This document shows, piece after piece, positions 38,469-41,035 of a DNA stretch of 41,035 nucleotides (its first letter is position 1; each line of letters begins with the position of its first letter). The position numbers were made by a program, and so were the translations under genes. A model generated the notes under the pieces. It saw only the letters and a list, made by a program, of their open reading frames with translations. It was not told the DNA's origin and ran no database searches. This stretch comes from Sphingobacterium thalpophilum (GTDB taxonomy: Bacteria > Bacteroidota > Bacteroidia > B-17B0 > Aurantibacillaceae), in assembly GCA_943325195.2 (NCBI GenBank), contig CALPON020000008.1, positions 1 through 41,035 of the forward strand. The letters are read 5' to 3'.

Positions 38469-39169
38469 ATACTGCTGATAAGGCCCCACATACGCCCTGT
38501 TATACCCCTGTCACGGCGATAACTAAAAAAATCATTTTCGAAGGTGCACCGTTGCATTGTCCAGATATTTTTACCTGCTATATCTGCCTGCAAAAGAACG
38601 TGTTTATTGCATGCAATCAGATCGATCCGGTTCTCTATTAAACAATTTGAGGGAAATCCCGCTTCCCGAAAGGCCTGACTGACTTCGGGGCCCACTTCAA
38701 AACGATTGGGACTTATCCCCTGTCCGATGGCAATCTGAATGTTTTTGCGTTCGGCTCCCTGCTGGCACATTTGCTCAATTGTGGCAGCTGCAATGCCGCC
38801 CAGAGTGCCCCGCCAGCCGGCATGTGCTGCTGCAATGACGCCATTTACAGCATCCTCAAACAATAGGGGATAACAATCCGCAATACTAACGGCCAAGACC
38901 AGATCTTTTTCCCCACTCACCAGCGCATCCCCTTCCTGAAAGCCAGGTCTGGCAGTGCATACTTTTGTGCCATGCACCTGGCGAAGCAGACACAATTGTT
39001 GCTCCCGTAAATTCAAGTCCGTTAAAGCACGCTGACGATTAATCGCAATCTGTTCGGGCAGGTCATCTGATCCCCCCAGATTCAAAGAGGCAAAAGCTCC
39101 GGATGATACGCCGCCATTACGAGTACTGAACCCGTGAACAGCACGAATATTCGGAGCCTTCAACCACAT
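38465..39169 (-). CDS. pgeF: Peptidoglycan editing factor / purine nucleoside phosphorylase (YfiH/LACC1 family)
   Basis: A 234-residue cytoplasmic enzyme. The zinc-binding set H66 (RQVHGTK), C99 (IADCYPLL) and H116 (AAHAGWRGTLGG) is intact, and GFSTRNGGVSSG near the start is typical. Members hydrolyse or phosphorolyse purine nucleosides, and in E. coli YfiH prevents misincorporation of serine for alanine in peptidoglycan precursors. The ATG overlaps the pyk stop by one base (TAATG) and its own stop overlaps the porP start, so all three are probably translated from one mRNA. Confidence 0.92.
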   Translation of the reverse strand: MWLKAPNIRAVHGFSTRNGGVSSGAFASLNLGGSDDLPEQIAINRQRALTDLNLREQQLCLLRQVHGTKVCTARPGFQEGDALVSGEKDLVLAVSIADCYPLLFEDAVNGVIAAAHAGWRGTLGGIAAATIEQMCQQGAERKNIQIAIGQGISPNRFEVGPEVSQAFREAGFPSNCLIENRIDLIACNKHVLLQADIAGKNIWTMQRCTFENDFFSYRRDRGITGRMWGLISSI

Positions 39170-40599
39170 TAACTGATGTAACTTAATTTCATCATGTTGG
39201 TCCGCCCCTTCTCTTTCATCGGCATGCTGGCAATATTGATGACCAGATCATCGTTTTTCACAATGCCTTCTCGTTTAATAATATCCTTCAGGTCATTAAT
39301 CGTCTGATCGGTACTTTCATACTTATCATAGTAATACCCGCGCACACCCCAGACTAAACTTAAAGTGGTAAGCAGACTCCGATTATCTGTAAAAATTAAA
39401 ATGGGAGCTTTAGGGCGGTGACTTGACAGTTTAAAAGCCGTATAACCTGAATTGGTCATGCTGATTAATGCCTTTGCTTGCGCGTGATGCGCCAGGGAGC
39501 AAGCATTGTAGCAAATACTATCGGTGATATAGGTAATCGTTCTAATTTGAGGTGTGTGTTCCTTGTGATAAATGGTATCCAGTTCCTCGACTTGTGTGAT
39601 GATTTTACGCATCATTTCAATCACTTTTACTGGATATTTTCCGACCGACGTTTCTGCACTCAGCATCACCGCATCGGCCCCATCCATCACGGCATTCGCC
39701 ACGTCGTTTACTTCTGCACGGGTAGGTGTATAACTTGTAATCATACTTTCCATCATCTGCGTGGCAATAATCACCGGCTTTCCAATCTCGATACATTTCT
39801 GAACGATCATTTTCTGAAGAAGTGGCACTTTTTCCATTGGTAATTCCACCCCCAAGTCACCCCGTGCCACCATGATACCATCAGTAATATCAATGATGTT
39901 ATCAATTTCGCGAATGGCTTCTGGTTTTTCAATTTTTGCAATAACCCGGGCGCGTTTGCCTTTAGATCGGATGATGTCTTTTAATTCCACGATATCCGTC
40001 ACACTGCGCACAAAGGAAAGACCTATCCAGTCAAAATCATGCGCGAGGGCAAAGTCCAGATCACGAATATCTTTTACAGTGAGACAAGGCAAAGAGATTT
40101 TTGTGTTCGGGAGGTTCACCCCTTTTTTTGAAGACAAATGGCCTCCCACCTTGATCAGACAGCGTACATTGTCTTTTCCGTTGGTGTCGATGACTTCGAG
40201 AAGAATTTTTCCATCGTCGATCAATACGGTCTCTCCCACTTTCACATCTTGAGGAAATTGCGGATAGGTAATGTAAATCATGGTCGAATTACCTTCCATT
40301 TCTTTGGTGGTGATGTCGATGATTTGTCCGGTAACCAATTCCGCACTATTATTTTGCACCACACCGATGCGTAGTTTTGGCCCCTGCAAATCGGCAAGAA
40401 TGCCGACATGGCGCTTTAATTTTTCGTTGAGAGTCCGAATGTTTTCTACCGTTTTGAGAACGGCATCATAATCCCCATGTGAAAAGTTGATCCTGCAAAT
40501 ATCAAGACCCTCCCGGTACATTTCCTCCAACACTTCAATATCCGCAGTGGCAGGTCCCATGGTGGCCACAATCTTTGTCCGGTTAAATGGTTTTTTCAT
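39169..40599 (-). CDS. pyk: Pyruvate kinase
   Basis: A 476-residue glycolytic enzyme converting phosphoenolpyruvate and ADP to pyruvate and ATP. It shows the N-terminal RTKIVATMGPATAD, the SHGDY region, the signature VIAKIEKPEAI around the catalytic lysine, MVARGDLGVELP, and ATQMMESMITSYTPTRAEVNDVANAVMDGADAVMLSAETSVGKYP. The C-terminal allosteric domain is present. The start is ATG at 40599. A -7-like octamer and a pair of direct repeats lie upstream, next to the palindrome block. It heads the pyk-pgeF-porP-TPR operon. Confidence 0.96.
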   Translation of the reverse strand: MKKPFNRTKIVATMGPATADIEVLEEMYREGLDICRINFSHGDYDAVLKTVENIRTLNEKLKRHVGILADLQGPKLRIGVVQNNSAELVTGQIIDITTKEMEGNSTMIYITYPQFPQDVKVGETVLIDDGKILLEVIDTNGKDNVRCLIKVGGHLSSKKGVNLPNTKISLPCLTVKDIRDLDFALAHDFDWIGLSFVRSVTDIVELKDIIRSKGKRARVIAKIEKPEAIREIDNIIDITDGIMVARGDLGVELPMEKVPLLQKMIVQKCIEIGKPVIIATQMMESMITSYTPTRAEVNDVANAVMDGADAVMLSAETSVGKYPVKVIEMMRKIITQVEELDTIYHKEHTPQIRTITYITDSICYNACSLAHHAQAKALISMTNSGYTAFKLSSHRPKAPILIFTDNRSLLTTLSLVWGVRGYYYDKYESTDQTINDLKDIIKREGIVKNDDLVINIASMPMKEKGRTNMMKLSYIS

Positions 40600-40726: not shown

Positions 40727-40761
40727 GAGGCGATGGAAGCCGAAGGGCTTGAAGTCGCCTC
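40727..40761. repeat. Palindrome 1: nested stem with 5' GTAG
   Basis: Outer stem GAGGCGA (40727-40733) pairs with TCGCCTC (40755-40761). An inner stem AAGCC (40737-40741) pairs with GGCTT (40746-40750). GTAG (40724-40727) sits at the 5' foot, as in REP elements recognised by RAYT transposases. The inner stem is a one-base-deleted copy of palindrome 4. Confidence 0.7.
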
Positions 40762-40824
40762 GGTTAATCATTTAAAAAAAGTCCTCATCAATCTCAATAC
40801 CGTGTTCTTTATAAAGGTCGCAAA

Positions 40825-40841
40825 GAACTCCGAAGGAGTTC
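40825..40841. repeat. Palindrome 2: GAACTCC-GAA-GGAGTTC
   Basis: A perfect 7-bp stem with a GAA loop. Compared with palindrome 4 (AAGCCC-GAA-GGGCTT) the core differs at two positions on each arm, and both differences are compensated on the other arm. Confidence 0.8.
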
Positions 40842-40845
40842 AATA

Positions 40846-40878
40846 CCCCTTACCTGAGGCAACGCCTCAGGTAAGGGG
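40846..40878. repeat. Palindrome 3: perfect 15-bp stem, AAC loop
   Basis: Arm CCCCTTACCTGAGGC pairs without mismatch with GCCTCAGGTAAGGGG across a 3-base AAC loop. It has no U-tract on either side, so it is not a standard terminator. Confidence 0.9.
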
Positions 40879-40892
40879 GCACTCAGGTTTTA

Positions 40893-40909
40893 CAAGCCCG
40901 AAGGGCTTG
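40893..40909. repeat. Palindrome 4: CAAGCCC-GAA-GGGCTTG
   Basis: A perfect 7-bp stem with a GAA loop at the head of the second direct-repeat copy. Confidence 0.85.
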
Positions 40910-40975
40910 AAGGCGCCTCGGTTAATCGTTCAAAAATTACGCGCATCAATCTTCGTTAGAAATTTACTCAGTATT

Positions 40976-40992
40976 CAAGCCCTTCGGGCTTG
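40976..40992. repeat. Palindrome 5: CAAGCCC-TTC-GGGCTTG
   Basis: The exact reverse complement of palindrome 4, with 19 identical bases when two flanking bases are included, 66 bases from it and in the opposite orientation. Confidence 0.85.
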
Positions 40993-41012
40993 CTTTCCTG
41001 GTAAGTCTCCTT

Positions 41013-41035
41013 TACCACGGACTGCGTCCGCGGTA
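41013..41035. repeat. Palindrome 6 at window edge: 10-bp stem, TGC loop
   Basis: TACCACGGAC pairs with GTCCGCGGTA except for one A-C mismatch. It may extend past the window. Confidence 0.7.

Follow-up and report, generated by a model that had tools for sequence, protein, structure and literature searches.

The window, that is, the whole stretch of 41,035 nucleotides that was analysed, carries the gene pyk on the minus strand (39169-40599) and, upstream of it, a cluster of short palindromes. A search with the pattern AANNCCGAAGGNNTT revealed three exact copies, AACTCC-GAA-GGAGTT at 40826-40840 (+) and AAGCCC-GAA-GGGCTT at 40894-40908 (+) and 40977-40991 (-), together with a decayed copy with one mismatch at 40736-40750, in agreement with the form AAnnCC-GAA-GGnnTT and the position upstream of pyk given in an earlier note made from the sequence alone. 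When up to one mismatch was allowed the window contained eight matches against 1.23 expected, a number reached by none of 100 shuffled sequences. The full stems are 7 bp long (GAACTCC.. and CAAGCCC..). The two differences between the stems of copies 2 and 4 are, as the same note had observed, both compensated on the opposite arm, and copy 5 is indeed the exact reverse complement of copy 4, with arms of 19 nt that are 100% complementary. Copies 2 and 4 have a longer palindrome between them (40846-40878), and another, the sixth, reaches the end of the contig (41013-41035).

The four palindromes had been taken as members of one family, a grouping that was given up, as they are rather different hairpins, namely A', C', C and a decayed C', of an element that has six. 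The region 40825-41035 (minus strand) is a non-autonomous element with the hairpin order B-C-66 nt spacer-C'-B'-A', truncated by the contig end so that its hairpin A lies beyond it. The features, listed in the direction of the element, are:

41013-41035, minus strand: hairpin B of the left module, truncated at the contig end, TACCACGGAC-TGC-GTCCGCGGTA on the plus strand, with GCA as the loop of the element strand
40976-40992, minus strand: hairpin C (copy 5), CAAGCCC-GAA-GGGCTTG on the element strand
40910-40975, minus strand: spacer of 66 nt between C and C', the C'-proximal part of which matches the 3' end of the transposase gene tnpA
40893-40909, minus strand: hairpin C' (copy 4), CAAGCCC-GAA-GGGCTTG on the plus strand
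40846-40878, minus strand: hairpin B', stem of 15 bp, loop of 3 nt
40825-40841, minus strand: hairpin A' (copy 2), GAACTCC-GAA-GGAGTTC on the plus strand
40819-40915, minus strand: complete right module C'-B'-A', 70.8 bits with the covariance model R1
40772-40817, minus strand: 3' remnant of tnpA, 5'-truncated beside A', coding for LYKEHGIEIDEDFF-stop, 95% identity to positions 5971-6051 of contig C147
40736-40750, minus strand: decayed C' of an adjoining older element (copy 1), one mismatch, 55 nt at 84% to the C' region

Since A' adjoins a fragment of the TnpA C-terminus, with a decayed C' beyond it, the locus is read as a non-autonomous copy beside older remains that carried tnpA.

Uniqueness to this locus had been named as an observation that would speak against a maintained family, and when analysing the complete genome (2.91 Mb, 217 contigs) 28 exact matches to the pattern were found, 25 of them with complementary NN/NN positions, while the reversed pattern gave two. 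The matches are concentrated on few contigs and several lie at contig ends, as expected since repeats break assemblies. The genome harbours one intact Y1_Tnp gene of 150-151 aa, located on C147 exactly between C and C' in the order A-B-C-tnpA-C'-B'-A'. On its left side hairpin A is GAAGTCT-GAA-AGACTTC, B has a long stem and C is CAAGCCC-GAA-GGGCTTG, and on its right side C' is CAAGCCC-TTC-GGGCTTG, B' is CCCCTTACCTGAGGC... and A' is GAACTCC-TTC-GGAGTTC; no tnpB was seen in this tnpA locus. Hairpin B of the window has its counterpart upstream of this tnpA, and the window element corresponds to the C147 layout with a short spacer in place of the gene. The spacer measures 66-67 nt in all seven spacer copies of the genome and still carries the 3'-terminal sequence of tnpA. 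A DNA search revealed more copies on C147, C127, C175, C17, C128, C49, C39 and C19, and the covariance model detected 18 complete modules (E <1e-5). On C49 and C175 (loci L031 and L033) tandem decayed B-A pairs extend beyond the element as a unit of ~70 nt with TCTTTCAGACTTC.

To characterise the enzyme, 17 proteins were compared, in which the residues DHLH (D53, H54, H56), W94 and Y114---Q118--H121H122 are invariant. The motif around the tyrosine reads YVQRQEVHH and the C-terminal tail EHxIEFDEKYLL. The signature DHxH, W, Y---Q--HH is that of TnpA_Y1 subclass 1.2, known from Bacteroidetes and Cyanobacteria (Quentin et al. 2018, PMC6006769), with which the protein also shares a length of ~148 aa, a conserved C-terminal tail and a low copy number. 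An AlphaFold model (pLDDT 89) found its best PDB matches in the TnpA proteins of ISDra2 and IS608 bound to DNA hairpins (E ~1e-8), the match to the RAYT 4er8 being weaker. Judged by motifs and predicted fold, the transposase is assigned to the IS200-like TnpA_Y1 subclass 1.2 and not to the class 2 RAYTs. Of the encoded RAYT (Y1_Tnp) that the earlier note had proposed to look for, the Y1_Tnp gene flanked by palindromes was thus found, but not the RAYT class.

The palindromes could in principle be REP/REPIN sequences of the classical type that depend on a class 2 RAYT (TnpA_REP), a system that likewise combines inverted pairs and arrays with one palindrome-flanked transposase gene and whose sites would be mostly intergenic, many of them between convergent genes, as found here (see below). 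This is nevertheless improbable, as the protein has Y---Q--HH instead of the Y---NP of TnpA_REP, scores 21.4 bits with the RAYT model NF047646 (cut-off 80) against 53.6 bits with the IS200 model NF033573 (cut-off 55) and resembles ISDra2 and IS608 more closely than 4er8 in its fold, and no GTAG or GTGG foot was seen at the 5' side of the hairpins in the modules.

Relatives of TnpA at 41-59% identity were identified in 24 of the 396 genomes of the class, with one copy in 22 of these 24 and two in the other two (E<=1e-36). The protein of this genome is 59% and 57% identical to proteins from other families compared with 51% and 45% within its own genus, which is compatible with horizontal movement without proving it. 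The flanks of the relatives show a three-hairpin module of constant order and spacing whose stem sequences differ: C (17 nt), ~20 nt, B (17-33 nt), ~10 nt with the conserved linker TTATTCATATT, and A (15-17 nt), the conserved flanks being TATT-CAA.. and TTATTCATATT. A detector with fixed spacing found the module in 24 of 59 tnpA flanks, in 2 of 56 far-flank controls and in none of 30 dinucleotide-shuffled sets. With model R1 the module was found in 22 of the 24 tnpA-positive genomes and in 32 of the 372 others (Fisher p 2.6e-19), and among positive genomes outside the training of the model in seven of nine (p 2.2e-6). In 26 of 30 tnpA loci, about half of which had fed R1, a module lies within ~110 nt of a gene end, in 18 of them on both sides. 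The 32 genomes that bear modules without a close tnpA count against the explanation preferred below; in genome G178 the tnpA between the modules is broken, and some module-bearing genomes keep only such a gene.

Elsewhere the modules occur mostly as inverted pairs A-B-C/C'-B'-A' with a gap of mostly 0-55 nt, of which 18 were listed, or as arrays, which bears out the BIME-like arrangement suggested earlier. Among 20 sampled sites, 19 are outside long ORFs and ten between convergent genes (p 0.014 against one in four). Tandem arrays show periods of ~123, 133, 156 and 257 nt, leaving the exact element ends unfixed; in L111 (2228-2692), L124 (2163-2526) and L200 (1957-2504) they are head-to-tail arrays of single modules with periods of ~123, ~133 and ~156 nt, respectively. 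In L169 (1288-1505) a further inverted repeat, TTAAGGAAATA...TATTTCCTTAA, encloses the compact inverted unit from outside and is perhaps an element end, or due to chance.

The layout is that of a REPIN, with inverted palindromes, a short spacer and dispersal between genes. Inverted palindrome pairs, short spacers, arrays, intergenic location and a single transposase gene flanked by palindromes are shared with the REPIN/BIME/REPtron systems of the RAYTs of E. coli and Pseudomonas, whereas the class 1 transposase, the lack of a GTAG/GTGG tag, the perfect 7-bp stems with GNA triloops and the three-hairpin module set the present elements apart. As the whole unit forms an inverted repeat and non-autonomous copies exceed the single autonomous one, ordinary MITEs derived from a DDE transposon, with inverted repeats that merely resemble hairpin modules, were also considered. 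This reading is very unlikely, since the encoded enzyme is a Y1 and not a DDE transposase and since in the relatives left and right stems differ while each is still palindromic, which places the constraint within each hairpin and not between the two ends.

When 20 modules were aligned, 95.7% of the cells paired and 16 of 22 pairs showed change on both sides, with 95 double-sided cells against 29 in shuffled alignments and a single one-sided cell, so that changes do not fall at random with respect to pairing, the second observation that had been named as adverse. The covariation score was 0.564 and at most 0.091 when the partner was slid by one column. As these 20 modules had been chosen by complementarity, the pairing test was repeated with only the outer CAA/TTG fixed and the inner pairing free, which gave 362 Watson-Crick, 7 G-T and 27 other combinations among 396 inner cells, and perfect hairpins in 74 of 99 cases against none of five in the reversed control. 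The stems thus vary by compensatory double substitutions. That the folded hairpin is maintained had been argued from copies 2 and 4, and the idea is supported. These two copies, however, are the unlike hairpins A' and C' of the element, and it is the comparison of orthologous hairpins at separate loci that provides the actual evidence for covariation.

The loops follow a rule of their own. On the strand that forms the top strand to the left of tnpA, loops of the type GNA (GAA, GCA, GTA, GGA) were found in 69 of the C, 78 of the B and 81 of the A hairpins, out of ~91-99 hairpins each in 99 non-redundant modules, so that overall ~75-80% of the loops obey GNA on one strand. When stems were counted more strictly close to the ends of the gene, there were 42 GNA against 1 TNC on the left and 33 TNC against 2 GNA on the right. 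The right-hand hairpins B of this genome, with the loops GTT and GCT on the element strand, depart from the rule, which counts against the explanation preferred below. A passage of PMC4686876, with reference to Hirao 1994 and Yoshizawa 1997, describes extra-stable, nuclease-resistant DNA minihairpins of the type d(GCGAAGC), in which a G-C pair closes a GNA triloop, and gives GNA as a stability rule for DNA triloops. The likeness to the minihairpins described there extends to the closing context C-GAA-G and the free middle base, although those are synthetic oligonucleotides while the rule is here read from natural sequence variation. Energy models gave equal energies for the GNA and the TNC strand, evidently because their parameters hold no special bonus for GNA triloops, and the strand argument accordingly builds on the loop counts and on the asymmetry of G-T wobbles, which are more frequent on the GNA strand (50 against 26, p 0.008 with shared descent ignored) and give a weak indication of that strand. 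Together these features suggest that a DNA strand is under selection in its folded form.

A further explanation, that the hairpins are structures at the RNA level (bidirectional terminators or mRNA-stabilising intergenic hairpins) spread by recombination, has little probability. The hairpins would be stable as RNA too, and about half of the 20 sampled copies are between convergent genes. Against it, the region contains neither a terminator-like site nor an Rfam family, G-T cells are not enriched when the inner pairing is left free (7 against 27 other non-pairs), GNA is a stability rule of DNA triloops in the cited passage of PMC4686876, and the modules are linked to tnpA, flush with the gene ends.

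In G166 an inverted module pair is located between convergent genes that are 372 nt apart. Both flanking genes could be aligned at the orthologous site, where the genes are separated by ~12 nt in G419 and by almost nothing in G418, while G414 has an unrelated stretch instead. This is presence/absence of the element at one site, with approximate junctions, as the flanks of this one empty site are too diverged to place the exact element ends.

In PMC6006769 subclass 1.2 is entered as 'no' for REP and its members are described as generally without typical IS200 secondary structures. The close clade departs from this description, since conserved GNA-loop hairpins, arranged in modules, flank the gene ends and non-autonomous copies exist. 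The REP search of PMC6006769 demanded a GTAG or GTGG tag, which is absent here and may be why the hairpins were missed. The strict three-hairpin detector gave no hit near distant subclass 1.2 genes; a looser hairpin count registered 47 hairpins on the left and 73 on the right there, compared with 1.5 and 3.1 in shuffled sequences, with a weaker loop orientation rule. In L046-L060 and L197-L224, short hairpins with GNA loops and different stem types (GTCCC-GTA-GGGAC gatat, GCTCC-GTA-GGAGC gacctgt and ACCCC-GAA-GGGGT gacatt), each with its own 3' flank, lie beside distant tnpA genes, often ~50 nt apart on both sides. A literature search, outside the reach of which lay subscription journals and ISfinder, found no later paper on hairpins of subclass 1.2, and six of these palindromes had no match in the text of the literature searched.

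With the observed anatomy, covariation, GNA-loop rule, tnpA association and presence/absence at one site, the locus is probably a non-autonomous, REPIN/MITE-like element derived from one with a Y1 (HUH) transposase and three-hairpin ends, and would be moved as single-stranded DNA. This explanation is supported by the intact tnpA lying exactly between C and C', by spacers that retain the tnpA 3' end, and by a module that flanks tnpA, with covarying stems, GNA loops and an enzyme of predicted ISDra2/IS608-like fold. The hairpins would fold once their strand is exposed as single-stranded DNA, e.g. on the lagging-strand template, and would most likely be bound as end-recognition sites by TnpA, which with its HUH residues H54/H56 and Tyr114 (numbering of the 150-aa form) would cleave near them and transfer the unit as single-stranded DNA. 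Copies with the 66-nt spacer may have arisen by internal deletion of the tnpA-bearing form and would be passengers mobilised in trans by TnpA, and recognition as a folded DNA strand would select for paired stems and GNA loops.

The Y1 HUH transposase, its fold and the subterminal DNA hairpins are shared with the IS200/IS605 elements IS608 and ISDra2, from which the present elements differ by having three hairpins at each end where those have one, and by a low copy number. IS200/IS605 elements are excised as single strands and inserted 3' of a specific tetra- or pentanucleotide through base pairing. In IS608 and ISDra2 the hairpins of both ends act on the same strand, whereas here the loops are inverted between the two ends on one strand. 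As left and right hairpins are oppositely oriented in this way, the IS200 excision scheme is not transferable unchanged; the mirrored orientation resembles the REP/inverse-REP arrangement. That subclass 1.2 as a whole represents a distinct kind of single-stranded-DNA element, with several mirrored GNA-triloop hairpins per end, REPIN-like passengers and reading of the extra-stable strand, is put forward tentatively, as an idea somewhat short of probable.

A transposase subclass described without terminal hairpins thus appears to carry a conserved multi-hairpin module and passengers. The GNA loops would mark, in natural sequences, selection for folded single-stranded DNA and not for RNA, and one class of short palindromes, probably of Bacteroidota genomes, is given an origin.
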